Origin: Geobacter sp.
GTDB taxonomy: Bacteria > Desulfobacterota > Desulfuromonadia > Geobacterales > DSM-12255
Assembly: GCA_009886125.1 (NCBI GenBank)
Contig: VFJK01000015.1
Span: 1 to 41,654, forward strand
Direction of reading: 5' to 3'
Length of the DNA: 41,654 bases
Under the pieces are notes generated by a model. The model did not search any database, was not told where the DNA came from, and worked only from the letters and a program-made list of their open reading frames with translations. The position numbers and the translations under genes are program-made. Position 1 is the first letter of the stretch, and the number at the start of each line of letters is the position of its first letter. This document shows, piece after piece, positions 6,436-41,195 of this stretch.

Positions 6436-7520
6436 CTCAAGTATCCGGTCATATGCTGCAGGTAGAATGTCCAATTGGAAAGGATATTGACGCTTATCGC
6501 ACATTCATAGGTGCAGGCACATTTCGTGGTTTTCAGCCATTGTCTTATTTCCATTGCCCGTTCGCCCTCCCACAGCTTCTTAATGTCGTAGGAAGCCTGG
6601 CGGAGGTTGCCGAAAGGTTTGTCCAAAATTTCACATGGATACACGGTTCCATCGGCAGTAATAACTCCGAACAATGACCCTGCCTGGCAGTGCCTGAAAG
6701 GTCTTTCCCCCCTAATATGCGAGACAACAAGTTCTCGCGACAGAATGTTTTTGTCATTAAGAATCCTGCCTCGAAACGAATCGTTCCCGTATTCATGCAG
6801 TAATCCCTTCTGGCAGTCACGAAGTATTTTCCGTGTGAGTTCTTCATAGGCAACTGCCATACCCATCCGTTCGTCCGACGGCACATTGTAGACGCCTTCA
6901 CTGCGGGCCATGACGATCTGAATTGCGTCTATTTTCTGCTCGTTGACCAAATGGTCATAGATTTTCAAGGATTCACGGTAGTTCTGCGGTGAAATGGTTA
7001 GAGATACAGACGGTATGATTGCAGGCCTGAACGCTTTAATGGCAGAGAACGTGGCGATGCACCGCTCGAACATGCCATCAACAGCTGTTAGCAGATCATG
7101 TTTCTTGCCAATCTGGTTGATCGACAGGGATAGAAATATTGTTTTCTCCGGATGTCTGTCAGGCATTGTTTCGCAGAACCGGACAATGTTTGAGGTATAG
7201 AATCCGTTAGTAGAGATGAAAAGACTCTGTGCAGATGAATTCGTGAGGTAGAGATCGGCTATGTCGGTGAGGTCGTTTCTTATAAATGGCTCGCCACCTG
7301 AAATATTGACATTCATGAGGCTTCGCGGAAGGTTTTTAGTTATCTGTGCAATTTCCTGCAGGGAAAGCTCATCCGCTCTGTCTGTTGAAGGGCGAAAATC
7401 GACAAAACAGAATGGGCACCTTGCGTTGCATCGCTCGGTAACGAAGTGGATGAGGGTAGCAGGTCGTGCCTTCGAAAAGAGAAGGTTTGCTACTTGTTCT
7501 AATTGCAATCCTATCGCCAT
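6432..7520 (-). CDS. Radical SAM/SPASM domain protein
   Basis: A 362-residue protein. The 4Fe-4S ligands C31, C35 and C38 lie in ERCNARCPFCFVDF, followed by MNVNISGGEPFIRND, the GGE motif that contacts SAM. A SPASM-like C-terminal region includes HCQAGSLFGVITADGTVYPC, then FGNL and a CACTYEC cluster, which would bind auxiliary iron-sulfur clusters. SPASM proteins often modify peptides, but others act on sugars or alcohols. Here the gene sits between a GT9 and a GT2 gene (TAAATG junction upstream, ATGA overlap downstream), so a glycan-related role is as likely as peptide maturation. No precursor peptide is evident next to it. Confidence 0.88.
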   Translation of the reverse strand: MAIGLQLEQVANLLFSKARPATLIHFVTERCNARCPFCFVDFRPSTDRADELSLQEIAQITKNLPRSLMNVNISGGEPFIRNDLTDIADLYLTNSSAQSLFISTNGFYTSNIVRFCETMPDRHPEKTIFLSLSINQIGKKHDLLTAVDGMFERCIATFSAIKAFRPAIIPSVSLTISPQNYRESLKIYDHLVNEQKIDAIQIVMARSEGVYNVPSDERMGMAVAYEELTRKILRDCQKGLLHEYGNDSFRGRILNDKNILSRELVVSHIRGERPFRHCQAGSLFGVITADGTVYPCEILDKPFGNLRQASYDIKKLWEGERAMEIRQWLKTTKCACTYECAISVNILSNWTFYLQHMTGYLR

Positions 7521-17712: not shown

Positions 17713-18462
17713 TCATTTCCCGCAGACCGGGCAGCCCTGCATGGAGAGCGGCTTTTCCAGCCGGCACTCGGTCAACAGTTGCTGGTTCGAAAATATCTCT
17801 GCCGGAGCTCCGTCCGCCCGTACCCTTCCATGCCCAAGCACAATCACCCTGTCGCACAGTTCCATCACCATGTCGAGGTCGTGACTGGTGAATATTTTGG
17901 TGTGGTGAAACTCTTTCATGAGTCCCATGAGCTGGCGACGGGCAAAAGGGTCCAGCCCGTTGGTCGGCTCATCCATGACGAGGATATCCGGTTCCATGGA
18001 GAGTACCGTTGCAATCGCAACCCGCTTCTTCTCGCCTCCCGAAAGGTGATAAGGGGGCTTTTCACGAAGATGACCGGCATCGACCTTGGCGAGTGCGGAT
18101 GTGACGCGCTCTTCTACAGCAGCTCCTGAAAGGCCGAGATTGAACGGGCCGAAAGCGACATCGTCAAAAACCGTCGGCATGAAGAGCTGATCGTCAGGAT
18201 CCTGGAACACCAACCCGACGGTGCGACGTATCTCAGGCAGAGTCTCTTTTGTTATCGGCGTGTGGCCAATGCTTATCTCTCCGCTCGTCGGCACGAGGTA
18301 GCCGTTCAGATGGAGCAGCAGGGTCGACTTCCCCGCTCCGTTTGCGCCGATTATACCGACTGACTCGCCGTGCGTTATGGTGAATGTCACTCCGTCAAGG
18401 GCAACAGTCCCGTCTGGATAGATGTGGCGGAGTTCTTTCAGTTCAACTATGTGATGACTCAA
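17713..18462 (-). CDS. nikO: Nickel/cobalt ECF transporter ATP-binding protein
   Basis: ABC ATPase of about 249 residues. Walker A is GANGAGKSTLLLHLNG, the Q-loop FQDPDDQLFMP is of the CbiO type, the signature LSGGEKKRVAIATVLSMEPD is followed by Walker B ILVMDEPTNGLDP, and the switch His is in FTSHDLD. The start is taken at the TTG at 18462 because GGGAGG sits five bases upstream and it overlaps the TGA of nikQ. An in-frame ATG-type start at 18540 would lie 82 bp inside nikQ and give an atypical leader. The protein powers uptake by the NikM/NikQ membrane parts. The last residues contain CRLEKPLSMQGCPVCGK, a Cys-rich tail worth noting. Confidence 0.93.
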   Translation of the reverse strand: MSHHIVELKELRHIYPDGTVALDGVTFTITHGESVGIIGANGAGKSTLLLHLNGYLVPTSGEISIGHTPITKETLPEIRRTVGLVFQDPDDQLFMPTVFDDVAFGPFNLGLSGAAVEERVTSALAKVDAGHLREKPPYHLSGGEKKRVAIATVLSMEPDILVMDEPTNGLDPFARRQLMGLMKEFHHTKIFTSHDLDMVMELCDRVIVLGHGRVRADGAPAEIFSNQQLLTECRLEKPLSMQGCPVCGK

Positions 18463-19271
18463 TTGAGCCTCCCGGTGACTATCGAGCCGATGATCTGAGT
18501 CAGATTCGTTGTTCTCATAAAAATCAGAACCAGCGACCATCCTGCAACAAAAAAAAGTTCGCGCCTTCCAAACGAAGATCGCCTGCCAGAGTGAAAACTG
18601 CCGTCAAACCCTCTCGAAAGCATCGCAATATGGACACGTTCGGCACGCTGCCAGGTACGGAGCAGGAGATGTCCTATAAGGGTCCCGAAGCTCTTTATCC
18701 CCATCCCTTTATTCCCGCACGAACGGAGTTGACGGGCTCTGGCAGCTCTTCCCCCCTCTTCGGTCAGCACGAAAATGTACCGGTAGAGGAAGAGGAGCTG
18801 TACGGCAAATGGGCGCGGCATCCCGAGCTGCTCAAGTGCCTGGCAGACCCCGGGGAAGCCGGTCAGGGCGAGGAGAATAAAGGCGCTTCCGACGGTCAGT
18901 ATGCTTCTGATTATTATGGAGAAAAACGACAGCCATCCGCCTGAGATGGCCAGTGGTCCTGCCTGAAGCATGATTGTACGGTCGATGAGCGGATTGAAGA
19001 TGCCGACAACGATCACGAAAGGACAGAGGAGAAGGATCTTTCTGGCAATGTAGGAAAAAGGGAGGTTCCCGGCAGCAATCATCGCAGCCGGAAATATGAA
19101 AAACGGGAAGAGGGCCGACAGTTCATATCTGTCGTGTGATATGACGAGCAGGACAAAAACAGCGGTGACAAGCACTTTTGCCCGTGCATCAAGCCGGTGA
19201 AGCCCTGTGTCTCCAGATGCCAGAAGATCGAGTCTCTTGAAATCAAGTATTGCGCCGTCGATGGAAGCCAT
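18459..19271 (-). CDS. nikQ: Nickel/cobalt ECF transporter transmembrane T-component
   Basis: A 270-residue CbiQ/NikQ-type protein. It has several membrane helices and the coupling segments RAARARQLRSCG and LLLRTWQRAERVHIAMLSRGFDG, whose Ala-Arg-x pairs contact the ATPase. AAGGAGAGC lies immediately before the ATG. Together with nikM and nikO it forms an energy-coupling-factor importer for Ni or Co. The divergent nikR and the operator before nikM argue for nickel. The stop overlaps the nikO TTG start, so translation of the two is coupled. A 99-bp gap with no feature I recognise separates it from nikM. Confidence 0.93.
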   Translation of the reverse strand: MASIDGAILDFKRLDLLASGDTGLHRLDARAKVLVTAVFVLLVISHDRYELSALFPFFIFPAAMIAAGNLPFSYIARKILLLCPFVIVVGIFNPLIDRTIMLQAGPLAISGGWLSFFSIIIRSILTVGSAFILLALTGFPGVCQALEQLGMPRPFAVQLLFLYRYIFVLTEEGGRAARARQLRSCGNKGMGIKSFGTLIGHLLLRTWQRAERVHIAMLSRGFDGSFHSGRRSSFGRRELFFVAGWSLVLIFMRTTNLTQIIGSIVTGRLN

Positions 19272-19370
19272 GCTCTCCTTGAAGAATGTACAAAAATCAT
19301 GGTGAGCTGCGAAGCAGTATCAAATCATATAAAGGCCGATAATTCAAGGTTTCAGACAGATTCTGCCCGT

Positions 19371-20618
19371 TCAGTGTTTATGATCATGGCTGCCATGTTC
19401 ATCTTCATGTTCATGGGAGTGCACAGCGACCTCGGCCTCGTGAGTATGCCGCGGGTTGGGGTCTTCCGGGTGAGGTTTCGAGTGATCGTGTACATGAGGG
19501 TGTGGATGTGAATGCTTGTGATCATGGCCGTGCGAATGCTCGACACCGCCGTGTCTATGCGGATGTTCATGATCATGTGCGTGTGGATGGGCATGTTCGT
19601 GAGCGTGAGGTTTCCGGGCTGCCAACTGCTGTCGCTTCCTCAGAATAAACCCGACCAGAACAGCCAGGCCGAGTGTGATAAGTGCGCCGGCAATCCCGGA
19701 GAGACTGGTGCCGAGCCTGCTCACTTTCCCTTTTTCACCTTCGGGTTTCTTGAAGTTGTAATCAGGCAGAAATGCCAGTTTTCCCTGAATGCCGGAGAGA
19801 GCAGCATGAATTCCGTCTTTCGAGCCTTCAACCGCTTCCTTGCCAGTCACTTTCTGTATCGACCATTCAAGACCGTCTGGATGCTCCGAAGCAAACCACG
19901 AAATAAACCCGCCGGTGATGAGGGCAAGAACCAGAAATCCGGGGATAATGCTCTTCATGATGCTTGCCTTGCCTTTATCCCTGGCGGTAAAGATATCGGG
20001 CCGGGCTTTATGGACAAAGCCGACGATTATTGCGGTCACTATCCCCTCGACAATCCCTATCCCCAGGTGAATCGGCTGCATCATTGCTACGAATGCGGTG
20101 AAGGGGAGGGCGGATATTCCGGATATCGTCGTTTCGAGTACGACAGAAAATGCACCGAGCTGAAGCCCGGCGATTGCGGCAGCCATTGAAGCGATCGCTA
20201 CTTTTGTTGATGACGGGTTACGTCCTGCTAATGGGCGATAGATGAGCGGATAGGCGATGAAAGCCGGAAATATCCCCAGGTTGAAGATGTTGCAGCCGAG
20301 AGCCAAAAGGCCGCCATCTGCAAAGAAGAGTGCCTGAACTACAAGCACTGAAGCGATAGTCAAAAAAGCTGCATAGGGGCCAAGCAGGATCGTAAGCAGT
20401 AATCCACCGCCGAGGTGACCACTGGAGCCTGTTGCCGGAATGGTGAAGTTGATCATCTGCGCAGCGAAGAGAAACGCGCCAAGAACACCCATGAGAGGGA
20501 CCTTGCGGTCGTCCAGCTCTTTGCTGACCTTTGCCGAGCAGTAAGCGATTGCTCCTGCTGAAGCTGCCCACATCGCGCCGCCGACTGCCGGTGATAAAAG
20601 TGCATCAGCCATGTGCAT
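19371..20618 (-). CDS. nikM: Nickel ECF transporter S-component (CbiM/NikM) with PDGLE region and His-rich tail
   Basis: A 415-residue protein starting MHMADALLSP. The second-position His of this N-terminus is the known metal ligand of CbiM/NikM proteins, which together with AGGAG eight bases upstream fixes the start at 20618 rather than 20645. Residues 1-205 are the S-component membrane domain (GSSGHLGGGLL, ALGCNIFNLGIFPAF). Around 247-251 is PDGLE, the mark of the fused NikN/CbiN-like domain. A final helix precedes residues 336-415, an 80-residue tail with 30 His in HxH and HxHxH runs. The tail should collect nickel; since the helix before it ends in RKRQQ, it is probably cytoplasmic. Expression should be repressed by NikR through the palindrome just upstream. 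Confidence 0.94.
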   Translation of the reverse strand: MHMADALLSPAVGGAMWAASAGAIAYCSAKVSKELDDRKVPLMGVLGAFLFAAQMINFTIPATGSSGHLGGGLLLTILLGPYAAFLTIASVLVVQALFFADGGLLALGCNIFNLGIFPAFIAYPLIYRPLAGRNPSSTKVAIASMAAAIAGLQLGAFSVVLETTISGISALPFTAFVAMMQPIHLGIGIVEGIVTAIIVGFVHKARPDIFTARDKGKASIMKSIIPGFLVLALITGGFISWFASEHPDGLEWSIQKVTGKEAVEGSKDGIHAALSGIQGKLAFLPDYNFKKPEGEKGKVSRLGTSLSGIAGALITLGLAVLVGFILRKRQQLAARKPHAHEHAHPHAHDHEHPHRHGGVEHSHGHDHKHSHPHPHVHDHSKPHPEDPNPRHTHEAEVAVHSHEHEDEHGSHDHKH

Positions 20619-20638
20619 GAAAAGTTCTCCTGTTTGGG

Positions 20639-20665
20639 GTAGCACATAAAATAAATATGTGCTAC
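20639..20665. promoter_or_regulatory. Probable NikR operator
   Basis: A perfect 10-bp inverted repeat GTAGCACATA / TATGTGCTAC is separated by the 7-nt AT spacer AAATAAA. It ends 21 bp upstream of the nikM ATG and covers the expected transcription start of the nikM promoter. NikR operators are long dyads with widely spaced half-sites (GTATGA-N16-TCATAC in E. coli), and this site, GTAGCAC-N13-GTGCTAC, has the same architecture. Next to a nikR gene it is the best candidate operator. Confidence 0.8.
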
Positions 20666-20669
20666 TAAT

Positions 20670-20698
20670 GGTATAAGATTATGTAAAAAGTATGTCAA
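20670..20698 (-). promoter_or_regulatory. Sigma70-type promoter of the nikM operon
   Basis: Read on the minus strand: -35 box TTGACA at 20693-20698, a 17-bp spacer and -10 box TATACC at 20670-20675. The predicted start near 20663 falls inside the palindromic operator, so bound NikR would block RNA polymerase. Confidence 0.75.
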
Positions 20699-20793
20699 GC
20701 TGTTTTGCTTTATTGCTGATTGAATCTATTGGATTTTGATGTTAAATCGTTTAGAATCTTTGAAAAAAGTCTGTTTAAGATCAGGAGCGTTGA

Positions 20794-21213
20794 ATGGGAA
20801 ATACGGTCAGATTCGGGATTTCGCTTGATGAGAAGCTGCTGGACAGTTTTGACCAGCTCATCGAGCAGAAGAGCTATATGAACCGGTCAGAGGCCATTCG
20901 CGACCTTATCAGGGCATCTCTGGTAGAGGAGCGTCTGGGAGCTGAAGATCAGGAGGCAGTCGGCACGGTGACTCTGGTCTATAACCATCATGTCCGTGAT
21001 CTTTCCGAGAAGCTGACCGAACAGCAGCATTCGCACCATGACCAGATTATCTCGGCTATACACGTCCATCTTGATGCGCATAACTGCCTGGAGGTGCTTA
21101 TCATCCGGGGGAATGTGAAGAATATCAAGCATATCGCCAACGAGCTGATCGGCGTCAAAGGAGTCAAACATGGCAAGCTGGTCATGACTACTACCGGCGA
21201 AGAGCTGCACTAA
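20794..21213 (+). CDS. nikR: Nickel-responsive transcriptional regulator NikR
   Basis: A 139-residue protein of the usual NikR length. The N-terminal ribbon-helix-helix ([16 protein letters not shown], then [12 protein letters not shown]) binds DNA, and the C-terminal ACT-like domain binds nickel. H79, H90, H92 and C98 reproduce the spacing of the E. coli square-planar nickel ligands (11, 2 and 6 residues apart). AGGAGC lies eight bases before the ATG. It is divergent from nikM and should repress it when nickel is plentiful. The 148-bp spacer contains the nikM promoter and operator; I could not pick a convincing promoter for nikR itself. Confidence 0.96.
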
Positions 21214-21281
21214 TACTCATTTGACAGGTTTGCGCATATACATCTTTTGAGCCGCTGAAGATTATTATAAAGATGAAAAGT

Positions 21282-21312
21282 TTGAAATATGGTAAAATTC
21301 GGGTATTATAAT
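21282..21312 (+). promoter_or_regulatory. Candidate promoter of the short peptide gene
   Basis: A TTGAAA box at 21282-21287 and a perfect TATAAT at 21307-21312, 19 bp apart (longer than the ideal 17). This would give a leader of about 40 nt before the 20-codon ORF and a transcript of about 140 nt up to the terminator. Confidence 0.5.
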
Positions 21313-21356
21313 CAGCAGTCGAAGATGAAATTTCACACCAACAAAGGGGGTTAGTT

Positions 21357-21419
21357 ATGAAGAAGGCAAAATACGTCTCTCCGAGAGTCCTCGGGAGTGC
21401 AGTTGTTCATCCGTGCTAA
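21357..21419 (+). CDS. 20-residue peptide gene of unknown function
   Basis: The ORF encodes MKKAKYVSPRVLGSAVVHPC and stops at TAA. AAAGGGGG lies about five bases before the ATG, a very strong Shine-Dalgarno. A promoter candidate stands upstream and a Rho-independent terminator starts 13 bp after the stop, so it has the parts of a complete small transcription unit. The peptide has a basic N-terminus, a YxxPxVLG segment resembling leader motifs bound by RiPP recognition elements, and ends in His-Pro-Cys. I do not recognise a named family. Alternatives are a leader peptide that controls the downstream secreted-protein gene by attenuation, or a small RNA with a chance ORF; a 7-bp hairpin (about 21379-21397) sits inside the ORF. 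No maturation enzyme is adjacent. Confidence 0.6.
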   Translation: MKKAKYVSPRVLGSAVVHPC

Positions 21420-21431
21420 GAAAAGGGTAGG

Positions 21432-21458
21432 GGCGCTGGCATAATGTCAGCGCCTTTT
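21432..21458 (+). terminator. Rho-independent terminator after the short peptide gene
   Basis: GGCGCTGGC (21432-21440) pairs with GTCAGCGCC (21446-21454) with one G-T wobble, a 5-nt loop (ATAAT), and TTTT follows. The T-run is short, so termination may be partial and allow read-through into the next gene. Confidence 0.75.
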
Positions 21459-21498
21459 GCTTGTCCAACAGCTCTATAGATTTGACAATGAGGATAGC

Positions 21499-22347
21499 AT
21501 GATAATTTTTCGGGCCTTATTTTTCCTTGTTTTTATTGCCTCTGCTGCCTGCGCTGAGGGAGATGCAGCACTAAAACCTTTACATGAAGAGTCGTTGGCG
21601 GCAACTGTCTCGGGGCAGATTATGATCGGAGACAATATGCCGATGCCTTACGGGGTCGTACTTCTGTATGACAAGTTGTTAGGGCCACCCCCCTCATTGG
21701 GAAAGTATTGGCGGGTTCCTGATCATATTACCGCTCTTGGGAATGATGGCCGGTTTTCGCTTGAGCTGGCAGATGGGACGTATTACTTCCAGGTTTCACA
21801 GAAAAATCCCGGTGCTGAAATAGGCCCGGCCAATGAAGCTGAATATCTCTATTTTCATGGTGATGCCGAAGGGAATTCCTTGCCGCTGATTGTCAGTAAA
21901 GGTCAAAGCGTAAACCTCGGGCAGCTTAAGGCGTTTCTCTGGAAGCCCGATCTGATAAAGCGTGACATGGGGATCACCTCTGTGGAAGGGGTCGTTGTTG
22001 ATCCTGACGGGAAACCGGTGGAGAGGGCGGTTGTCCTGGCATATTATAACAACATCGGACAGGGCAGGCCGGTGTTCATCTCCGACCGTACTGACAAGAG
22101 CGGCAGGTATCAACTCCGGACGAATGATGGAGGAATATTTTACCTCAAAGTCAGGAGTGTTGTCGGTGGAGGGAAGCCATCAAAAGGTGAGTATCTGAAT
22201 ACGACCAAGGAGTTCGAGCCGGTAAAGGTGACCCTTAAAAAAGAAGAGAAGCTGAAAGGGGTGACTCTCAAGGTAATGAAGATGTCACGCCCTGGAGAAG
22301 AAGCGGAGGATATTGAAAAAAGAGACTGGAGAAAAATAGTGCAATAA
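21499..22347 (+). CDS. Exported protein with two carboxypeptidase-regulatory-like beta domains
   Basis: A 282-residue protein. The ATG at 21499 follows GAGGA and begins a signal peptide (MIIFRALFFLVFIASAACAEG, probable cut after ACA). Two domains follow: one with ATVSGQIMIGDNMPMPYGVV and DGRFSLELADGTYYFQV, the second with VEGVVVDPDGKPVERAVVLA and DKSGRYQLRTNDGGIFYLKV. Each has the G.V.D..G.p...A.V / ..G.y.l....G.Y.l.v pattern of CarboxypepD_reg-type beta sandwiches. A charged tail ends the protein. It may bind a partner or sugar in the periplasm or on the surface; no catalytic motif is seen. It converges with the cytochrome gene, the stops being only a few bases apart, and there is no terminator between them. 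Confidence 0.75.
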   Translation: MIIFRALFFLVFIASAACAEGDAALKPLHEESLAATVSGQIMIGDNMPMPYGVVLLYDKLLGPPPSLGKYWRVPDHITALGNDGRFSLELADGTYYFQVSQKNPGAEIGPANEAEYLYFHGDAEGNSLPLIVSKGQSVNLGQLKAFLWKPDLIKRDMGITSVEGVVVDPDGKPVERAVVLAYYNNIGQGRPVFISDRTDKSGRYQLRTNDGGIFYLKVRSVVGGGKPSKGEYLNTTKEFEPVKVTLKKEEKLKGVTLKVMKMSRPGEEAEDIEKRDWRKIVQ

Positions 22348-22353
22348 CTGCTC

Positions 22354-24147
22354 CTACCACTTGCTCTTTTCGTTCCAGTCTCCTTCCTTTTTCTGTGGCA
22401 AACTGCTGTTTCTGCCAAACTGTCGTACATGACAACCCACGAAGTCAGTTTTAGCCGAACGGTTTTTAGCCGATGCCGAAGCAGTACTCTTTGCTGTTAT
22501 GCTACTAGCTCCCTTTGCCCCGGCAACTCCTTTTTTCTCCGGAAGCCATGAAAGACCGATGTTGTCACGTAAACCGGCCGGCCCCTCTTCGAAACAGTTT
22601 GTCTGTAGCAGGCGCGGCAGACCCGAATTGTGGGCCTGATGACACTTGGCGCAGGGGAATGAGTGCTCCCTGTTTTCTCCCCATCCTTTGACCGCTTTAT
22701 GAATACGAGCAGTTTTACTTTCTCCTTCAGAGCTTAAGCGGTTGTGACACTTAAGGCAGAGACCGCCAAAAGACTCTACCGTTTCGATTATTCTGGTTTC
22801 TGCAGAAAAAGTGTTCCTGTCGATATTGTACTGCATCCCCTGCATTGAAACCGGTCCCTTTGTCGTTCCGGTAGCTCCGGTCGTCATCACGTTACCTTGC
22901 CGGGAAGGCCCGCCCCTGCCGGGCGAGTTGGCTGGTGGCGCATCCTCCCTGTATGGCGACGTCAGCCAGGTCCCTTTCAGCAGAGGTACCGCATACGCCA
23001 TCTTTTCTCCCAAAGTCCGGCTTACGCCGTGCGGGTCGTGGCAGGGGGTGCAGAGACCGTTGATGCTCCCGTTTGCCGAATATTTCAGAAAAACATCTGC
23101 TTTGAGATGACTGCTGACAATCCCGGAGCGCCCCTGTCTGTTTGAGTAGCGTGAGGTCGACCCTTTGATACCTGATCCGAACCGGTGAGTATCCTTGTAG
23201 CCCATAATCGGCTGGCTGGCAGAAAAAGTCGAGTTGTAGCCCCAGGGGGTAATCCCGGCTGTTTCTGTTTCGTGGCAGTCAAAACAGAGTCCGGTGCCGC
23301 TGTTGTAGGGGTTTATGCTTTGCAGGTTCGGGTTCGAAGAAGGGGTATACGTCATCCGGTAACCGTTTCTGCCGGACGTTGTCTGTTTCAGCAGTCCACC
23401 GGCCTGTCTGCCTTCAATAGTATAGCTGGCAGTGACTCCAACGATAACTGATCCGTGAGAGTTGTGACAGTCATAGCACTCAATATTTTTAGTACCGCTC
23501 CTTCCTCTGGTAACAGGTATCTTTGCATCATAACCGCTCGCCTTGCTCCAGCCGCCTTCGTTTGCAGCGGCATTCCCATGGGCAGATAAAGCTTTGGAGA
23601 GCTGTTTTTTCCTGTTGGAAGTGGCGGTTGAGTATTTTCCCCAAGGAACAACTCCTTTCTGTTCATATCGGGAGGCAATACTCTGGCCGTCCCATGCATA
23701 AGTGCGGGGAGTGTTGGCATCGTCCGTGAATGTGCTGGTGTCATTGTTACTATCGCTGTGGCAGGAGAGGCAGTGGCGGGTGATTTTTGACACCTCGTCA
23801 CGTTCTCTATCCGTTCCGATATTTGCAGGATAAAAACTGATCGCAGTGCTTTCCTGAACATATGAAGCCGGCCTGGTCCCCTGACCCCAAATCACCAGAT
23901 CGATCCTGCCCGGGACGCGCTGGTGATGCTCCTTGTTCATCTCTCCATCAGGGGTTGCTTCCCAGTGGCATGCGTAGCAGTGTTTTGAGGTCGCTACAGT
24001 CCCCTGGATATGGTGGGAGCTTCCTCGCAACTGTTTTAAAATATCAGCATGACACTGCAGGCATTCGTCCGCTAGCGCCTGCAGTGCTGTAAGATTTAAA
24101 AACAATGTGATCAGGGAGAGTGTCAGTCGGGTGAATGGGCTTCTCAT
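22354..24147 (-). CDS. Exported octaheme c-type cytochrome
   Basis: A 597-residue protein with a signal peptide (MRSPFTRLTLSLITLFLNLT...ALA). I count eight CxxCH heme sites: CLQCH (C29-H33), CYACH, CLSCH (C126-H130), CYDCH, CFDCH, CTPCH, CLKCH and CAKCH. A ninth site-like FVGCHVRQ near the C-terminus lacks the first Cys, so it is unlikely to bind heme. The heme-poor stretches are Ser/Thr/Gly-rich, and the tail has a low-complexity SSITAKSTASASAKNRSAKT run. Multihaem cytochromes of this kind carry electrons across the periplasm or to outer-surface acceptors. GGAGAACC precedes the ATG. It is probably the last gene of a minus-strand operon with the two sulfatase-like genes. It is not a standard nrfA or omc type that I can name. 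Confidence 0.9.
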   Translation of the reverse strand: MRSPFTRLTLSLITLFLNLTALQALADECLQCHADILKQLRGSSHHIQGTVATSKHCYACHWEATPDGEMNKEHHQRVPGRIDLVIWGQGTRPASYVQESTAISFYPANIGTDRERDEVSKITRHCLSCHSDSNNDTSTFTDDANTPRTYAWDGQSIASRYEQKGVVPWGKYSTATSNRKKQLSKALSAHGNAAANEGGWSKASGYDAKIPVTRGRSGTKNIECYDCHNSHGSVIVGVTASYTIEGRQAGGLLKQTTSGRNGYRMTYTPSSNPNLQSINPYNSGTGLCFDCHETETAGITPWGYNSTFSASQPIMGYKDTHRFGSGIKGSTSRYSNRQGRSGIVSSHLKADVFLKYSANGSINGLCTPCHDPHGVSRTLGEKMAYAVPLLKGTWLTSPYREDAPPANSPGRGGPSRQGNVMTTGATGTTKGPVSMQGMQYNIDRNTFSAETRIIETVESFGGLCLKCHNRLSSEGESKTARIHKAVKGWGENREHSFPCAKCHQAHNSGLPRLLQTNCFEEGPAGLRDNIGLSWLPEKKGVAGAKGASSITAKSTASASAKNRSAKTDFVGCHVRQFGRNSSLPQKKEGDWNEKSKW

Positions 24148-24235
24148 TGGTTCTCCATGATCAAATTACCTGTTCTGGATAACGGGAAGTCAGCTGTCGG
24201 AGTATTATCCTGCGATCATGCATTCGAATGCTGTT

Positions 24236-25903
24236 TCAAGGGTATGGGATGATCATTCTCTTCTCCGCAGGAGCGTACTTGACCTTTTTGCTATCTACGG
24301 AGGCATCCCACTGCAACAAGGTTTTTTTGAGGCGGGATACTGTTTCGGGGTGTTTTCCCGCCACATTGATCTTCTCCATTGGGTCATTCTTCAGGTCGAA
24401 AAGTTCTACGTCTTCATGGTGCTGTCGTTTCCCGGTGATGAATCCCCACCATGAGAGTTTCTCCAGAAGTTCCCTGTTTTTTCTGAGTATCAGTTTCCAC
24501 TCAAGGGTGCGGACGGCGATGTCTCCCGGAGGATAACCCAACTGCGTAAAGCTTTCCTTCAATGTCTTCTGGTATTGCAAGAGCTCTTTTGTCTCGGCCG
24601 GAGAGAACTCTTTGCCGTTTGCGCTCTGCATCTCCAGATACCACCTGCTCAAGGTGTATTCCCACCATGGGAGACGATCTATGAAAACTTCGCTGCTGCC
24701 TGTAGCACCTTTCTCACCCTTGATCAGCGGGAGTATATTCGCTCCCTGTGCATCGTGGGGCGCAGGTATCTCCAGATAGCCGAGGATAGTCGGCATGACG
24801 TCCAGTCCCTGCACCTGTTCCCTGATCCGTTTGCCACCAAATTCGGCATCAGGAAAACGTAGCAGGAGAGCGTTTTTTACTACCGGATCAGTTACGTCAT
24901 AGTGGAAATAGAGGCCGTTCTCACCCAGATCGTCACCATGCATCGACTGAAGGACGATCAAGGTTTTTTCAGTCAGCTTGAGGGAGTCGAGGAGTTTCAT
25001 AAGATCGCCGATGAACTGGTCGGTGTAGTAGACCCCGGCGTCATAACGACCTGTCACATAGTTGATGTCCTCTTCAGTCAGATGATAAACCGGTTTGAAA
25101 TCCCGGTAGAATTCATTGCGATAGACACGGGAGAAGATGTCATAAGATGGTGCATCGTCATTGATCCCTTGCAGCTGGGGCAGCTTTTTCCAGAAGGGCG
25201 TGTAGCCGGGCGGGTCGTACATGGTTTTGTATGGGGGGGGGACGGTTGCTGAGTAGGGCATGTGGAGCAGACCGCTGCCGATCCAGAGGAAAAACTTCTT
25301 GTCACTGTTGTTTTTCAGCCAGTTGAATGCGTCGACAGGGGCGACCCGGAGGCTGGTACCTTCCGGCCCGCGGGCTGTCCGCCCGAAATAATCGAAAGAT
25401 CGGGAGAAGACGTCTCCGGGGTTGATAAGCTCGCCGCCAGCCGTATCGAAACGCATGAAGAATTCCGGCGAACTGACTGTGGCAGCAGTGGTGTAGCCAT
25501 AATATTTAAGGATTTCAGGAAGTGTCCTTGCGGTAACCATGTCCCTGGTTACTTCAAAAGAGACCATGCCGTTGACCCGAGGATATTGTGAAGTAAGAAC
25601 GCTCATCTGGGCAATCGGTGTCAGATTGGCCTGGGAGATGGCATTTTCAAAAAGGACCGATTTCCCAGCCAGCCTGTCTATGTTTGCGCTGGTATTGCGT
25701 TTGTAGCCGTAGGCTCCAAGGTGGTCAGCCCGGAGGCATTGCAGGGAGATAAGGATCACATTGGTATTTTCATGACGGGCTTTTGGCGCAGCAGCTCCGG
25801 GAGAGGTTTCACCCGAAGCTGCTGTGACAGTGACATATGACAGAAGCGCGACTGCTGACAGCAGAGACGAAATAACAGGGCGACTTCTGCGGTACTTCAT
25901 CAT
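24236..25903 (-). CDS. Exported sulfatase-like protein, probably catalytically altered
   Basis: A 555-residue member of the alkaline phosphatase/sulfatase superfamily with a signal peptide (to about residue 30). The fold is clear: NVILISLQCLRADHLGAYGY, QANLTPIAQMSVLTSQYP, the GLDVMPTILGYL segment and DVELFDLKNDPMEKIN at the end. Three expected catalytic positions differ. The first metal Asp is Gln (SLQCLRAD, Q55), the Cys/Ser formylglycine motif is absent (Thr95 in LTPIAQ), and the SDHG metal motif reads SMHGD near residue 320. It may be a non-catalytic partner of the adjacent paralog or have a changed metal site. The ATG overlaps the stop of that paralog (ATGA). The substrate is not known; there is no sign of FGly modification. 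Confidence 0.85.
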   Translation of the reverse strand: MMKYRRSRPVISSLLSAVALLSYVTVTAASGETSPGAAAPKARHENTNVILISLQCLRADHLGAYGYKRNTSANIDRLAGKSVLFENAISQANLTPIAQMSVLTSQYPRVNGMVSFEVTRDMVTARTLPEILKYYGYTTAATVSSPEFFMRFDTAGGELINPGDVFSRSFDYFGRTARGPEGTSLRVAPVDAFNWLKNNSDKKFFLWIGSGLLHMPYSATVPPPYKTMYDPPGYTPFWKKLPQLQGINDDAPSYDIFSRVYRNEFYRDFKPVYHLTEEDINYVTGRYDAGVYYTDQFIGDLMKLLDSLKLTEKTLIVLQSMHGDDLGENGLYFHYDVTDPVVKNALLLRFPDAEFGGKRIREQVQGLDVMPTILGYLEIPAPHDAQGANILPLIKGEKGATGSSEVFIDRLPWWEYTLSRWYLEMQSANGKEFSPAETKELLQYQKTLKESFTQLGYPPGDIAVRTLEWKLILRKNRELLEKLSWWGFITGKRQHHEDVELFDLKNDPMEKINVAGKHPETVSRLKKTLLQWDASVDSKKVKYAPAEKRMIIPYP

Positions 25904-27339
25904 TTCTTCTGGGCTCCCTTTGCCTGTGAGTCATAAACAGGGTTTAAGCCCGGAATCCACTGTTTTGCATTCAGGTCATTCCCGATCGATTTGAACTGTG
26001 CAAAGAGTTTCTGCTCAAGTTCGTAGGCGATTTTCGGTTCCTGCTCTACCAGGTTTTTCAACTCTTTCGGGTCATTTTTCAGGTTGTAAAGCTCACGGCT
26101 CTTGTTTTCAAGAGTATAGATGAGTTTCCAGCCCTCTTTGGTGATTATGGAGCGTTTGTAAGTGTACTGGCGGTAGTCGGTCTCGGAGTAGACCTCTTTT
26201 GCAACAGCCTTACCCTTGAATGAAGGGACCAGGCTTGTCCCGCGCAGCTGGGTCTTCGCTTTCTCAGGCATCTTCACGTCGAGCAGGTCGAGAATTGTCG
26301 GCATGATGTCGAGGCTGGTGATCTGATCCTTGATGACCTTGCCGCTTTTCTGCTTGGGAAGCTTGATGATCAGGGGCACGTGGATGAGCTCGTCATACAG
26401 GCTGAAGCCGTGGTCAAAGCGCTTGTGCTCGTAAAACTCCGTGCCGTGGTCGGAAGTCAAAACGAAAATGGTTTTGTCCATAAGGCCCAGTTTCTGAAGT
26501 TCTGCGAGGAATTCTTTAAATTTCGCGTCGGTCCGCTGGATTTTCTCGTCGTAAATGGCGCGCCAGAACTTTACATCCTCATCGCGCAGCGTGACGCTCC
26601 CCTTCTCCAGACCTTCTTCACGAAGAGCCTCCTGCTCCTGCGCAGAGCCGGTGAACTTTTTGTCGTACCCCTTTTCGACAAAGCGGTAGTCGAAACCTTC
26701 GGCAGGTACATTCTGGCCATGCATGTCATAGCCGTGCAGGAACATGAAGAATTTTTTGTCCTTGTTAGCCTTCAGCCAGTCAAGAGCTTTAGGAATGCTG
26801 ACTCCCATGCTGCCGAATTTACCCTTGTCAAAGAAATACTGGTCGAACCCCTGTCCATAGCCGAATCCGCCGCTAACCCCGGCATTACCGGTGAAACCGC
26901 CGGTTGCGTAGCCGCTATTCTTGAGGACTTCGGCAATGGTTACCAGGTTCGGGGAGAGCTCTTTGAGATTGGAAAGCTTGTTGTTCGGCGGGTTGAAGAC
27001 CGCGAACTTGTTGGTCAGTTTATGCTCGGACGGGTAGACGCCTGTGAACCAGCTCATGGAGGCAGGGACGGTCCATGAGGCAACTGAAATGTTGTTGGTG
27101 AAGTTGAATCCATTTTTGGCCATCTCATCGATGGTCGGGGTCACTTTTTTCGGATAGCCAAGCGAGCTTACATGGGCAGCCTGAAGTGCGTCAAAGCTGA
27201 CAAAAACAAGGTTGTAATCCTTGTACTTCAGGGAGAGCTCTGCTGTGGGTTTTTTCTTCTCTGCCCCGTATGAAACCCCGGCAATTGCCAGGGAGAGTGC
27301 GAGGCATACCATCATGGTGATAAAGCTTCTGGTTTTCAT
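25900..27339 (-). CDS. Exported sulfatase-like hydrolase with Thr nucleophile
   Basis: A 479-residue alkaline phosphatase-superfamily protein with a signal peptide (to about residue 26). It keeps the metal-binding Asp (SFDALQAAH, D50) and the SDHGTEFYEH motif near residue 295. The nucleophile position is Thr90 (SWTVPASMSWFTGVYP) rather than the Cys/Ser-x-Pro-x-Arg of formylglycine sulfatases. Thr nucleophiles occur in LtaS and phosphoethanolamine transferases of the same superfamily, so a phosphotransfer or phosphodiesterase activity is at least as likely as sulfate-ester hydrolysis. GGAG lies well placed before the ATG. It is coupled to the altered paralog downstream. With the glycan genes in the window, a surface-glycan or lipid substrate is possible but unproven. 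Confidence 0.88.
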   Translation of the reverse strand: MKTRSFITMMVCLALSLAIAGVSYGAEKKKPTAELSLKYKDYNLVFVSFDALQAAHVSSLGYPKKVTPTIDEMAKNGFNFTNNISVASWTVPASMSWFTGVYPSEHKLTNKFAVFNPPNNKLSNLKELSPNLVTIAEVLKNSGYATGGFTGNAGVSGGFGYGQGFDQYFFDKGKFGSMGVSIPKALDWLKANKDKKFFMFLHGYDMHGQNVPAEGFDYRFVEKGYDKKFTGSAQEQEALREEGLEKGSVTLRDEDVKFWRAIYDEKIQRTDAKFKEFLAELQKLGLMDKTIFVLTSDHGTEFYEHKRFDHGFSLYDELIHVPLIIKLPKQKSGKVIKDQITSLDIMPTILDLLDVKMPEKAKTQLRGTSLVPSFKGKAVAKEVYSETDYRQYTYKRSIITKEGWKLIYTLENKSRELYNLKNDPKELKNLVEQEPKIAYELEQKLFAQFKSIGNDLNAKQWIPGLNPVYDSQAKGAQKK

Positions 27340-27372
27340 TCTCCAAATCTCCTTTTCCTTTTCAGCTTGGGT

Positions 27373-28368
27373 TCAATAAACTTCCAGGTCTCTTCCTACT
27401 GCAATTTTCCCTTTGTAATCCTTCATCTCTCTGAGCAGGTCGTCCGGAGTTGACGCAAGCGGTCGCTTCTCCGGGCGGAGAGTTATCGAGTTATGGTAGA
27501 GGATCAACAGCTTGGGCTTTGCTTTGGAAGCAAGTTTTACAAGCTGTGTCGTTGTCGTATGGTACTTAGATGCGTATTCCCTTATATCGTGCCCTTGAGA
27601 GTTGGGTCTCATCGGGTTGTCGAGATACTTCTCGGTGAGAGCTTCATGAAGAAGGATGTCGCAGCCGTTGCAGGCCTTTACGGTCTCTTCTGTCGGGGTG
27701 GTATCTCCGGAGATGACGATGCTTCGGTCTTTTGTGTCGAAACGGTATCCAAAGCTTGTCTTCCAGTCACCATGTTTTGTCGGGAAGGCTGTTACCGTGA
27801 TGTTCTCGTCTTTAAAGACAACACCGCTCTTGATCTCGTGGACATTCACCTTGATCCCTTCGGGAGAGGCTTTTTCCATGCCATCCCGACGGATGGAGAT
27901 ATCTTCATGGTAGGCAGTCAGGATATGTTCGGTCATGAATTTCAGCCCTTCCGGACCGTAGACCTCGAGAGGCTTTTGCCGTCCCATTGTCCAGGGGGTC
28001 AGAATCAGATCGGGATACCCGGCGGTATGGTCGGAGTGGAGATGGGTTACAAATACGTTCCGGATATTGATCGGGTCAAGCTCGGTAACCCCTTTGTCAA
28101 GCTTTGCCGCAGCGGCACGTCTAATGACTCCCGGCCCGAAATCGACCAGATACGCGCTGCCGTTGACTACGATCGCAGTGGCCGGGCCTGAGCGATCCGG
28201 GTCAGGATTCGGGTTGCCGGTCCCGAGTAGCACCAGTCTGGTAGAACTGGCGGGACTTTCAGCGTATGCACAGGGGAGGGGAGTCGAGAGCATCACAAGG
28301 CAAACGATTTTGGTGATCAATGATTTTATGGGAAAGTCTCCAGGGTGGAAGTGGATACAGATTAACAC
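27373..28368 (-). CDS. Exported metallo-beta-lactamase-fold hydrolase (RNase Z/lactonase-like)
   Basis: A 331-residue protein from the GTG at 28368. VLLGTGNPNPDPDRSGPAT opens the fold, THLHSDHTAGYPD near residue 107 is the HxHxDH zinc site, VISGDTTP holds the bridging Asp and LLHEAL a further ligand. The signal peptide is KSLITKIVCLVMLSTPLPC...A. The start is unclear: GTG at 28368 lacks a Shine-Dalgarno, while GGAG sits eight bases before an ATA at 28329 that would begin a perfect signal peptide. The family includes tRNase Z, phosphodiesterases and arylsulfatase- or lactonase-type enzymes; the exported form suggests a periplasmic hydrolase. It is probably first in an operon with the sulfatase-like genes. 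Confidence 0.85.
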   Translation of the reverse strand: MLICIHFHPGDFPIKSLITKIVCLVMLSTPLPCAYAESPASSTRLVLLGTGNPNPDPDRSGPATAIVVNGSAYLVDFGPGVIRRAAAAKLDKGVTELDPINIRNVFVTHLHSDHTAGYPDLILTPWTMGRQKPLEVYGPEGLKFMTEHILTAYHEDISIRRDGMEKASPEGIKVNVHEIKSGVVFKDENITVTAFPTKHGDWKTSFGYRFDTKDRSIVISGDTTPTEETVKACNGCDILLHEALTEKYLDNPMRPNSQGHDIREYASKYHTTTTQLVKLASKAKPKLLILYHNSITLRPEKRPLASTPDDLLREMKDYKGKIAVGRDLEVY

Positions 28369-32383: not shown

Positions 32384-32552
32384 TCAATGCTGACCTTTCT
32401 CGTCGGAATAATAGCCATCGTACCGGGTTTTATAAAGCAGAAACAGTTGTCATGATCTTTAAAACTGAATTCCATTGTCTTAATTATTCAGCTTATGATA
32501 TGTGTATATAATTGAACTGCAGTCACAAATGCCACAAAATAGCGAGCCAACA

Positions 32553-33464
32553 ATGACTTTTTCAGCCGGGCGTTTCTTCCTTTTATTTATCATACTCACT
32601 GCGATATTTACCACCCTAACCTCATGCAAGGATCAAAACCGTAAAGTTGTCAAGATCGGCTACATGAACTGCAATAACGAGCAGGAGACCAGACATCGTT
32701 TCGTCCCCCTCACGCGCTACCTTTCAGACAAGGTCGGCGTTGAGTTTGTCATGGTCCCGGTGGATACGCATGATTTCGAAAAGCGTTTCAATCAGGGGGA
32801 GTTTGCCTTTACCCACACCAACTCGCTGATCTACATGATCCTTAAGGAGCGTAACAACCTGAAGCTCCTCGCCTCTGAAAAACGGGGTAATTTCGGTTCA
32901 AAGTCAGGCGGGGCGATCATCTCCAGAAAAGGAAGCGGCATAGACAGGCTGGACCAGATAAAAGGGAAGAATTTCGCATTCGGCCCTATGCTTGCTCCGA
33001 CCGGCTATCTTGCGGAGTATGACCTTCTCCTCAGGTCCGGCATCGATCCTGAGAAGGATTTTGCTTCCTATACCATCCCTTCCGGCTCCTACAAGCACGA
33101 AAAGCTTGTCTACGGAGTCCTGTTCGGTCAGTACGATGTCTCTGCTGCCACATTACTCGATCTTGAGACCATGACCAAAGAGGGAAAGATAGCCGCAGAC
33201 GATTTCAACATCCTTGCTCAGACTCCTCTTGTCCCGTACTGCACGTTCGCTGCCGCTTCGAATGCCGATCCGGCGCTTGTCGACAAGCTCCGCAAGGCTC
33301 TTCTGGAGCTGAAACCGACCGATACTGCCGAAGTCGACGGTGAAAGGGTGAAGGTCCTGAAAGCAGCCTGGATCGACGGCTATGAAGAGCTTGTTGATAA
33401 GGATTTCGACCTGTTGCGGGAGATGGCAAAGCGGGTCAACATGCCCCCTTACCAGAAGTTTTAA
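32553..33464 (+). CDS. PhnD-like periplasmic-binding lipoprotein
   Basis: A 303-residue protein from the ATG at 32553. The earlier GTG at 32502 and ATG at 32529 would add a non-signal leader. The lipoprotein signal MTFSAGRFFLLFIILTAIFT runs up to LTSC (C25). The rest matches the phosphonate/phosphite-type binding fold: VKIGYMNCNNEQETRHRFVP, LTRYLSDKVGVEFVMV, FTHTNSLIYMIL, a GKNFAFGPMLAPTGYL segment and DVSAATLLDLETM. Such proteins bind phosphonate, phosphite or other oxyanions, including reported selenate-linked members. No ABC permease or ATPase is next to it. It starts a tight plus-strand operon with a TPR protein (6-bp gap) and a YedE-type transporter. Confidence 0.85.
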   Translation: MTFSAGRFFLLFIILTAIFTTLTSCKDQNRKVVKIGYMNCNNEQETRHRFVPLTRYLSDKVGVEFVMVPVDTHDFEKRFNQGEFAFTHTNSLIYMILKERNNLKLLASEKRGNFGSKSGGAIISRKGSGIDRLDQIKGKNFAFGPMLAPTGYLAEYDLLLRSGIDPEKDFASYTIPSGSYKHEKLVYGVLFGQYDVSAATLLDLETMTKEGKIAADDFNILAQTPLVPYCTFAAASNADPALVDKLRKALLELKPTDTAEVDGERVKVLKAAWIDGYEELVDKDFDLLREMAKRVNMPPYQKF

Positions 33465-33470
33465 ACCAAT

Positions 33471-34004
33471 ATGAAGTTTGACCGTTTCGACAAAATCCTC
33501 ATTTCACTGCTTGCTATCGCTGCAGTAGCTCTTCTCGCCTACACGGCACAGTCTTTTCCTGCTAAAACGACTGCGATCGAATCCAGGAGCATGGAGCGTG
33601 AACTGGCTTCCCAGGCCCGTGTAGGGCTTCTGGAGAAGCTCTATTCGCCGGTTACCGTGGCTCTGCAGAACGGGCAGTATCAGGAAGCTCTGTTGAAGCT
33701 TGAGGAAGTAAATATCCGCTATCCTGGAGAGGCTCACGGATTTATCCTCAAGGGTGAGATCCTTTACCGGATGGGAGTGCTTGACGGCGCTGCCGCCGGA
33801 TTTATCAGGGGGATCAAGCTCAGCGGTGACTATATTGATAAAAACAGCCCGTTTTCAAAGCGCGACATCATAGCGATACTTGTAGAAAAATCGCTCCCTC
33901 CGGCACAAACCGCATATAAAAACTCCCACTCGAATCCGGCATTGAAAGAGAACCTTTCCAACCTCAACTACCTCAAGAGCCGACTTGCCGGGGGGTGCGA
34001 ATAA
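33471..34004 (+). CDS. Small membrane-anchored TPR protein
   Basis: A 177-residue protein. One N-terminal helix (ILISLLAIAAVALLAYT) anchors a periplasmic part with LYSPVTVALQNGQYQEALLK and EAHGFILKGEILYRMGVLDG, two TPR-like helix pairs. It lies between the PhnD-like lipoprotein and the YedE-like transporter, starting 6 bp after the former and sharing TAATG with the latter. It may hold the binding protein and transporter together. I know no family name for it. Confidence 0.7.
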   Translation: MKFDRFDKILISLLAIAAVALLAYTAQSFPAKTTAIESRSMERELASQARVGLLEKLYSPVTVALQNGQYQEALLKLEEVNIRYPGEAHGFILKGEILYRMGVLDGAAAGFIRGIKLSGDYIDKNSPFSKRDIIAILVEKSLPPAQTAYKNSHSNPALKENLSNLNYLKSRLAGGCE

Positions 34005-35068
34005 TGCGCCTGGACCGACACATGATGACAATTATACTGAGCGGGCTGTTGCTCGGGTTTTTCGGGGTGATGCTCTCTGTCTGGGGGAATCCGGAGAACT
34101 CCGGTATCTGTGTTTCCTGTTTTATCGAGAATAGTGCCGGTGCTCTCGGGCTTCATAATAACCCCCGTCTTCAGTACCTTCGTCCGGAGCTTGTCGGTTT
34201 CGTGCTGGGGGCATTTGCAAGTGCACTTCTCAGGAGAGAGTTCCGTTCCCGGGGCGGCAGTGCTCCTCTTTTCCGCTTTGCCTCAGGATTTTTCCTGATA
34301 GTCGGCTGTGCCGTGTTTATCGGTTGTCCGATAAAGCTTTTCCTGCGATTCACTGCCGGAGATCTTACCTCTCTGGCAGGTGTCGTCGGGCTGATCGTTG
34401 GCGTCTGGTGTGGTCTGAAGGGGCTTGCTAGCGGTGTCGAGCTCGGTCGACTCTCTCCTTCGGCTGCTCCGAGAGGGAGCGGGCTGCTCGCACCTGCTGT
34501 TTTTCTGATGTTTCTGCTTTTTATCTTCATCTCCCCGTCTTTTCTAATTGCATCTGAAAAAGGGAGCAGTGCCCAGCATGCGCCTCTGCTGATCTCTCTT
34601 GCCGTCGGGCTTCTCCTCGGGTTTATAGCCCAGGGGAGCCGTTTCTGTATTACCGGAAGCGTCCGTGACATCCTGCTGATGGGACGACGAGCTCCGCTCC
34701 TCTGGGGCGGGACCGCTTTTCTCGCGACAGCACTGCTGGTGAATTTTATCAGTGGCCGGTTTAATCCCGGTTTTGCCGGGCAGCCCGGCTCACATCAGGA
34801 ATACCTCTGGTCATTTCTCGGGATGGTCCTCGTCGGCTGGCTCTCGGTACTGATCGGCGGCTGCCCGTTCCGTCAGCTGGTGAAGTCGGGTGAAGGTGAT
34901 TCGGACGCGGCGCTGGTGGTAGCCGGGATGTTTCTCGGTGGTGCACTGGTTCAGGGGTGGAATCTTGCCGCTACATCCGCCGGGGTCCCGATTGGAGGGA
35001 AGATCGCCATCATAGCAGGTTTTGTGCTTGTTTTCAGCGGAAGCATCCTTCTGAGAGAGAGGGAGTAA
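34004..35068 (+). CDS. yedE: YedE-family membrane protein (selenium-metabolism type)
   Basis: A 354-residue polytopic protein. GGGGGTGC just upstream and the TAATG overlap support the ATG at 34004 over the GTG at 33995. The two YeeE/YedE-type halves hold CAVFIGCPIKLFLRF and VLIGGCPFRQLVKSGEGD, with a conserved Gly-Cys-Pro in each, plus GICVSCFIENSAGAL, AQHAPLLISLAVGLLLG and GSRFCITGSVRD. The pattern is that of the YedE subgroup found beside selenium genes; YeeE relatives import thiosulfate through the conserved Cys. Function is likely transport of a sulfur or selenium compound. No selD or selA is in the window to confirm selenium. Confidence 0.85.
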   Translation: MRLDRHMMTIILSGLLLGFFGVMLSVWGNPENSGICVSCFIENSAGALGLHNNPRLQYLRPELVGFVLGAFASALLRREFRSRGGSAPLFRFASGFFLIVGCAVFIGCPIKLFLRFTAGDLTSLAGVVGLIVGVWCGLKGLASGVELGRLSPSAAPRGSGLLAPAVFLMFLLFIFISPSFLIASEKGSSAQHAPLLISLAVGLLLGFIAQGSRFCITGSVRDILLMGRRAPLLWGGTAFLATALLVNFISGRFNPGFAGQPGSHQEYLWSFLGMVLVGWLSVLIGGCPFRQLVKSGEGDSDAALVVAGMFLGGALVQGWNLAATSAGVPIGGKIAIIAGFVLVFSGSILLRERE

Positions 35069-40969: not shown

Positions 40970-41018
40970 ATTTCGTCATCCAGAAAGCAGAGCGGGATTA
41001 TGTGTGATCAAAAAAAAC

Positions 41019-41048
41019 TTGACTGGCATATTGTGCCTGTTGTATAAA
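41019..41048 (+). promoter_or_regulatory. Promoter of the tRNA-tuf cluster
   Basis: -35 box TTGACT at 41019-41024 and -10 box TATAAA at 41043-41048, 18 bp apart. The start would fall within a few bases of the first tRNA. The long A-run just before the -35 box may act as an UP-like element. Confidence 0.75.
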
Positions 41049-41057
41049 GCTAATTCC

Positions 41058-41133
41058 GCTGGCGTAGCTCAACTGGAAGAGCAGCTGACTTGTAATCAGC
41101 AGGTTGCGGGTTCGAGTCCCATCGCCAGCTCCA
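41058..41133 (+). tRNA. tRNA-Thr (TGT)
   Basis: The acceptor stem GCTGGCG / CGCCAGC, discriminator T and encoded CCA bracket 76 nt. The anticodon loop CTTGTAA gives anticodon TGT, reading ACA. D- and T-arms (GGTTCGAGTCC) are standard. First of four tRNAs preceding tuf. Confidence 0.97.
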
Positions 41134-41195
41134 TTTATAAAGCGAATCGCCGGGATGGAAACAATCGCCGGCGTATTGTTGTAGGCTTTCCCCCT

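Follow-up and report, generated by a model that had tools for sequence, protein, structure and literature searches.

The question raised by this locus is whether a 20-codon open reading frame (ORF), lying between a nickel-regulator gene and a gene for a secreted-looking protein, encodes a peptide that is translated and modified and, if so, which enzymes would modify it. The window, i.e. the whole stretch of 41,654 nucleotides analysed here, is an entire contig (C177) of a 3.57 Mb genome in 192 contigs. The ORF, its flanking signals and its nearest neighbours are as follows.

20794..21213, + strand: NikR, nickel-responsive regulator (NF003381, 226.7 bits), upstream neighbour of the peptide gene
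21282..21312, + strand: possible sigma-70-like promoter (TTGAAA; TATTAT/TATAAT), from a promoter scan
21343..21350, + strand: Shine-Dalgarno sequence AAAGGGGG, 6 nt 5' of the ATG
21357..21419, + strand: 20-codon putative precursor peptide gene, MKKAKYVSPRVLGSAVVHPC-TAA, of a conserved multi-copy family under purifying selection
21429..21457, + strand: 13-bp hairpin followed by TTTT, likely intrinsic terminator, from folding against shuffles
21499..22347, + strand: secreted-looking protein with a CarboxypepD_reg domain (start probably ATG 21499, the listed ORF beginning at TTG 21457)
22354..24147, - strand: multiheme c-type cytochrome (Pfam Cytochrome_C7, paired CXXCH)

The peptide gene and its family

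The original prediction of a 20-residue peptide gene ending in HPC was borne out by the ORF at 21357-21419, whose family is conserved across genomes. A degenerate form of the peptide motif had a single match in the window and none in any of 100 shuffles, agreeing with the prediction that the segment is not a random short ORF. The strong Shine-Dalgarno sequence predicted for the gene was also confirmed, and a similar motif was located within 20 nt upstream of 176 of 177 unique family copies. The other two proposed signals stood in part. For an own promoter, TATAAT is present at 21307-21312, 5' of the ORF, and the promoter scan returned a single site, TTGAAA-16-TATTAT (21282-21309); because one promoter-like site compares with 0.5 expected by chance, an own promoter is plausible rather than proven. 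The hairpin of the proposed terminator is real (-22.7 kcal/mol, z -4.4, equalled in 0 of 200 shuffles), but its T tract is just TTTT and a consensus terminator scan called none at 21429-21457. Rfam matches near the ORF were confined to eukaryotic families with sub-gathering scores at 22156-22399. No NCBIfam model matched any of three family peptides tested, and no Pfam model matched the one tested.

Searching 196 genomes, the present one included, gave family matches in 66, of which 62 were retained after removal of four with a best E-value above 0.3 (G167, judged a chance match on reading of its DNA; G129, G190 and G194 were removed by E-value only). In G180, a second and weak match was put down to chance, the genome being retained through its stronger copies. 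Up to six copies per genome were present among the matches listed. From this BLAST set, 79 stretches around matches were fetched (the GeoRSP contig L043 apart), and all 79 yielded an HPC-stop peptide under an extraction rule that required HPC-stop, giving 84 peptides, or 85 with that of the window. A pattern scan of species genomes recovered at least 118 stretches with the motif, and the matches listed include Desulfuromonadales/Geobacteraceae, Nitrospirota, Deferrisomatales and others, a distribution to be read as a lower bound; cultured isolates among the carriers are Geomobilimonas luticola JCM 17780, Pelotalea chapellei DSM 13688 and Geobacter sp. AOG1. Together with one IMG/VR contig, the pattern scan contributed 128 peptides among the matches listed; two matches (L256 and L276) were left out because no start codon was in reach. 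The 213 copies pooled from the matches listed reduced to 177 unique ones when identical local sequences were merged. These are 17-21 residues long as called, among the matches listed, although 41 of the 177 have a further in-frame start no more than 15 nt upstream, so that some N-termini may be called too short.

The family consensus is [M]KKxYxxP[RK]VVGSxxVHPC-stop. Y-15, P-12, H-3, P-2 and C-1 are invariant in 85/85 copies of the BLAST set (HPC-stop being also the extraction rule), R or K occupies position -11 in 85/85, and G-8 and V-4 are each kept in 84/85. Purifying selection at the codon level, proposed as a check, was found in the form of a pooled pN/pS of 0.144 over 78 disjoint close pairs. 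Differences at codon positions 1, 2 and 3 numbered 87, 69 and 378, each of 1280 (80 pairs). The low pN/pS and the concentration of differences at third codon positions lift the ORF above chance and, at the level of sequence, bear the signature of a translated, selected peptide. No variant with TGA (selenocysteine) replacing the last Cys codon was present among the loci fetched up to that check.

Several copies were recorded in unusual settings. Locus L284 (IMGVR_UViG_3300002231_000542) of the viral collection carries a family copy, MKKYMKPKVVGSSSVHPC, at 6695-6742 on the - strand with a good Shine-Dalgarno sequence; neighbouring ORFs look phage-like by eye, and the copy may be a phage-borne precursor. 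Five Nitrospirota contigs (L167, L205, L230, L239 and L267) each hold several copies, mostly of the VCVHPC type; on L239 four copies lie 1.0-2.8 kb apart, one of them followed by a CarboxypepD_reg protein.

GeoRSP enzymes and their linkage to the peptide

The original prediction had entertained, as speculation, a link to the two radical SAM genes within the window. The partners found are instead the GeoRSP genes on contigs C120 and C157 of the same genome. The window genes themselves, at 172-1902 (B12-type) and 6432-7520 (SPASM-like), sit within a glycosyltransferase/sugar cluster, and both fell below the cut-offs of the family models listed for them. GeoRSP is a proposed maturase set named in NCBIfam, consisting of a PqqD-like protein (TIGR04302), a radical SAM/SPASM enzyme (TIGR04303) and a second SPASM protein (TIGR04304), which is encoded in largely the same genomes as the peptide and often by adjoining genes.

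At locus L121, the gene order is YedE - PqqD-like - radical SAM - peptide - SPASM protein - cysteine desulfurase. Here YedE (TIGR04112, 388 bits, cut-off 200), the radical SAM protein (TIGR04303, 433.6 bits, cut-off 400) and the cysteine desulfurase (TIGR01977, 466 bits, cut-off 377) score above their cut-offs, and the PqqD-like protein (TIGR04302, 93.7 bits, cut-off 100) and the SPASM protein (TIGR04304, 100.2 bits, cut-off 300) below; the three GeoRSP models are nevertheless the best-scoring ones for their three genes, and the PqqD-like protein matches PF05402 with 67.2 bits. The peptide lies between the radical SAM gene and its SPASM partner at 17 of the 177 unique loci and beside the SPASM gene alone at four more; at three other loci the only radical SAM genes are distant ones of weak similarity. 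In 17 of the 21 GeoRSP-linked loci, a homologue of the cysteine desulfurase of L121 comes next. CxxxCxxC was found in 15/15 radical SAM proteins and 0/20 SPASM partners, and one active enzyme plus one partner lacking the SAM cluster motif would thus be expected.

In the class-level set of 24 GeoRSP genomes (23 above the TIGR04303 cut-off plus G185, with a partial match), 20 carry a peptide copy 37-212 nt behind the TIGR04303 gene on the same strand; the copies of G143, G144, G145 and G149 are solely away from the GeoRSP enzymes. The Geobacterales loci viewed showed no copy between the two enzymes, the radical SAM and SPASM genes adjoining directly. At order level, the table covers 15 of 35 GeoRSP genomes, picked as having peptide and enzyme on one contig; in nine of the 35 the start of a copy precedes the end of the co-oriented radical SAM gene by 8.6-10.7 kb, and in G035 the distance is 336 kb. 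In G014, the genes from the peptide to YedE are co-directional, except for opposite-strand ORFs taken as spurious.

Across the 196 genomes, TIGR04303 exceeded its cut-off in 58, and 56 genomes have both peptide and GeoRSP, six the peptide only, two GeoRSP only and 132 neither. Counted by genus, the level at which alone kinship was allowed for, 29 have both, one the peptide only, none GeoRSP only and 31 neither (61 genera). Completeness is 66-81% for four of the peptide-only genomes (G003, G006, G100 and G133), and in a fifth, G185, the GeoRSP match is partial (378 bits); G103, 97% complete with the peptide present and neither GeoRSP nor YedE, is a real exception. Conversely, G022 and G093 have GeoRSP and YedE and no detectable peptide, and a search of 16 and 19 kb surrounding their GeoRSP genes turned up no variant form; a diverged substrate or a relic system is possible in both. 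Twenty further peptide genomes taken as not belonging to Desulfuromonadales (Nitrospirota, Deferrisomatales, unplaced Deltaproteobacteria and one Phycisphaerae MAG) gave TIGR04303 matches over the cut-off in 14 and just below it in three (398, 391 and split 343+261 bits), GeoRSP being absent from the other three (L191, L217 and L222). The Phycisphaerae match, L222, sits on a 3.9-kb contig and may be a binning error. TIGR04112 YedE was present in 65 of the 196 genomes, or 59 after excluding six with only a higher-scoring YedE subtype; it occurs in 57 of the 62 peptide genomes and, after the same exclusion, in two outside them.

In the genome of the window, the GeoRSP proteins score 145.5 bits (TIGR04302, cut-off 100), 511.6 bits (TIGR04303, cut-off 400) and 287 bits (TIGR04304, cut-off 300). 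Contig C120 ends with the TIGR04302 gene and the start of the radical SAM gene, and C157 carries the remainder of the latter (with an overlap of about 79 residues) followed by the TIGR04304 gene; no variant peptide was detected on these contig pieces. A selB gene follows the SPASM gene (L043:1089-3068, C157), as a selenium-related neighbour besides YedE. A second precursor copy lies on contig C20. In the congener G002, the peptide region is collinear with 17716-28248 of the window, and the GeoRSP radical SAM gene is located about 27 kb from the peptide on one contig. The GeoRSP-linked part within the window itself is a cassette at 32502-35068.

32502..33464, + strand: PhnD-like periplasmic substrate-binding protein, with homologues upstream of GeoRSP in loci L110, L114-L117, L121, L197, L198 and L223
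33471..34004, + strand: small protein, homologue of a TPR gene adjoining GeoRSP (no Pfam match itself)
33995..35068, + strand: YedE family putative selenium transporter (TIGR04112, 408.9 bits, cut-off 200)

At the right end of the window, four tRNA genes (Thr, Tyr, Gly and Thr) occupy 41058-41557, and ORF 40962-41414, which crosses them, is probably an artefact.

Genes around the dispersed copies

Among 159 copies with a called upstream gene, 52 are preceded by one with three or more CxxCH motifs (5 to 34), always on the same strand and 16-185 nt away, compared with 9 of 171 downstream genes and 34 of 786 other genes of the same loci (odds ratio 10.7). These 52 copies are on 51 loci, at least seven of them from Nitrospirota, and the neighbour counts take in related genomes. 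Of 175 copies, 94 have a hairpin with a T run in the 90 nt behind them; control stretches gave 18 of 173 when taken 300 nt downstream and 1 of 160 when taken upstream, and the copies located at GeoRSP gave 12 of 21. With a cytochrome gene upstream and a hairpin and T run behind, many copies look, by gene order, like the last gene of a cytochrome operon. The window is an exception to this pattern, its upstream gene being nikR and its cytochrome gene lying downstream on the opposite strand. Synteny, ribosome-binding site and terminator had also been proposed as features to look for in relatives: the Shine-Dalgarno motif is conserved almost throughout, a hairpin with a T run is seen in part of the copies and the downstream gene varies.

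Relatives of the window cytochrome (22354..24147) were found within 6 kb of 45 of the 177 copies and relatives of the secreted-looking CarboxypepD_reg protein (21499..22347) within 6 kb of 39. Other partner proteins include CarboxypepD_reg, beta-helix/NosD-like and membrane mannosyltransferase-like types, and the two GeoRSP neighbourhoods scanned encode ResB-like and OpuAC-like proteins, a cupin and a permease of ArsP_1 or NicO type, though not all of them in both. NikR lies within 6 kb of 4 of the 177 copies and CbiM-like genes within 6 kb of 7, several of these matches being weak. At two Nitrospirota loci, L190 and L211, the peptide gene precedes nikR and nickel-transport-like genes by 119 and 203 nt, a pairing reminiscent of that in the window, though in a different phylum.

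Proposed maturation, alternatives and implications

Family conservation, selection, gene adjacency and co-occurrence, all read from genome sequence, make it very probable that the window ORF is a RiPP precursor gene and that GeoRSP is its maturation machinery. The Y and P of YxxP are present in 85/85 copies and the system includes a PqqD-fold protein, a pairing from which RiPP-type recognition is predicted. The PqqD-like protein (TIGR04302) would bind the N-terminal YxxP[RK]VV strand, and the radical SAM/SPASM enzyme (TIGR04303), with its TIGR04304 partner, would modify the C-terminal GSxxVHPC, with the C-terminal cysteine as the probable site. Conservation of the C-terminus extends to the very last residue, which points to this segment as the one acted upon by the radical SAM enzyme, and we put the chances that the C-terminal part is the modified site at about even. 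A single maturase may serve several dispersed precursor genes in trans, that of the window included. Of the earlier suggestions, that of a small peptide, probably modified and with YxxP serving for RiPP-type recognition, is thus supported.

Several known systems resemble this one in part. In pyrroloquinoline quinone biosynthesis (PQQ; PqqA/PqqD/PqqE), a very short precursor, a PqqD chaperone and a SPASM radical SAM enzyme act together, and the core of PqqA is Glu/Tyr. A very short precursor, a PqqD-like protein and a SPASM radical SAM enzyme are likewise present here, whereas the family peptide is multi-copy and lacks a Glu/Tyr core, and the L121 GeoRSP radical SAM protein scores 121.6 bits where the PqqE model has its cut-off at 381. 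Apart from its own model, this protein comes nearest to those of the AhbD, mycofactocin and NirJ maturases. Mycofactocin (MftA/MftB/MftC) has a PqqD-like partner as well. PMC3023750 describes its precursor as short (34-78 residues) and invariant at the C-terminus, and its maturase as a radical SAM protein. The family peptide shares the shortness, the invariant C-terminus and the type of maturase, but differs in its 17-21 residues, in its many dispersed copies per genome and in the second SPASM protein, and the mycofactocin cut-off of TIGR03962 (265) was reached neither by the L121 radical SAM protein (191 bits) nor by the partial copy of the window's genome (128 bits). In prochlorosin-type systems, one maturase serves many dispersed precursors. 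Several precursor genes would similarly share one maturase in trans here, although prochlorosins involve lanthipeptide chemistry, much longer leaders and no radical SAM enzyme.

Two alternatives accept the same precursor and differ in its product. The product might be a ligand of Ni, Co or Cu, with the His and Cys of HPC as donors and the linked transporters handling it. This reading could draw on the few NikR and CbiM-like genes near copies, on the cupin, DUF4198 protein and permease (NicO or ArsP_1) encoded near GeoRSP in two cases and on the NosD-like beta-helix proteins nearby; yet metal genes are beside few copies while multiheme cytochromes precede 52 of 159, and no outer-membrane metallophore receptor was seen among the proteins scanned, so that we regard it as doubtful though credible. 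Alternatively, the C-terminal Cys might receive or carry sulfur or selenium supplied through YedE and the cysteine desulfurase. YedE tracks the peptide closely (57 of 62 peptide genomes and two outside after the exclusion of the six subtype-only genomes), a cysteine desulfurase homologue follows 17 of the 21 GeoRSP-linked loci, and SelB is encoded after the SPASM gene in the genome of the window. PMC9312934 describes YedE as a possible selenium-related transporter. The substrate of YedE is a predicted one, however, none of the loci fetched by the time of that check had TGA for the last Cys, and no cysteine desulfurase homologue was observed beside the Geobacterales GeoRSP loci viewed (most with 1.5-kb flanks), leaving this chemistry unlikely.

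The remaining alternatives dispense with the maturation proposed. An unmodified small peptide, a signal or a small toxin, with an incidental GeoRSP association would suit the fact that the chemistry is predicted only, but it is made very unlikely by the genus-level co-occurrence of 29/1/0/31 and by the 20 class-level genomes, out of 24, in which a copy follows the GeoRSP radical SAM gene. The prediction had also considered a leader peptide or attenuator, in which ORF and hairpin regulate the following secreted-protein gene, and the strong hairpin after the window ORF, the downstream gene on the same strand and the excess of hairpins with T runs over controls (94/175 against 18/173) would suit it. 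This reading was not supported, since it is the peptide sequence that is conserved and the following gene that differs between loci; the hairpin is not universal, the near-ORF Rfam matches are sub-threshold eukaryotic families, and the GeoRSP co-occurrence would be left unexplained, so that we consider it highly improbable. A lasso peptide precursor was suggested by YxxP, which PMC12710340 gives as a lasso recognition motif, and YxxPxL is conserved in the lasso precursors of PMC10368454. Only about 10 residues follow the YxxP segment, however, the linked enzymes are radical SAM proteins, and neither a lasso B protease nor a C cyclase was found among the 19 window proteins or the GeoRSP-linked proteins scanned. 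The system found being GeoRSP, a lasso-type assignment was not supported and is considered extremely unlikely.

Returning to a RiPP precursor matured by GeoRSP, the product would act in the cell envelope, most likely in concert with the products of genes neighbouring the precursors, namely extracellular multiheme cytochromes and secreted proteins. With a multiheme cytochrome gene upstream of 52 of 159 copies, its function may lie in the envelope or in electron transfer, and a cytochrome-related role is put forward tentatively. It is conceivable, if speculative, that the family represents a minimal RiPP class of Desulfuromonadia and Nitrospirota, in which 17-21-residue precursors with a VHPC core of about 8 residues, many of them last in multiheme-cytochrome operons, are matured in trans to an accessory of extracellular cytochromes that is redox-active and binds metal or heme. 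In the open-licence PubMed Central literature, no relevant paper naming GeoRSP or TIGR04302/4303/4304 was found, nor one joining multiheme cytochrome, radical SAM and RiPP, or Geobacter with these; the substrate may be described in curator notes or subscription papers. What appears to be new is the putative RiPP family, its proposed maturase having already been named.

The orphan radical SAM system GeoRSP thereby gains a concrete candidate substrate, from a family of genes of about 20 codons that the NCBIfam and Pfam models tried had missed. This points to a single maturase for many scattered minimal precursors, across two phyla. Should the link to cytochromes be real, a modified peptide would be added to extracellular electron transfer, a process well studied in Geobacter-type bacteria.
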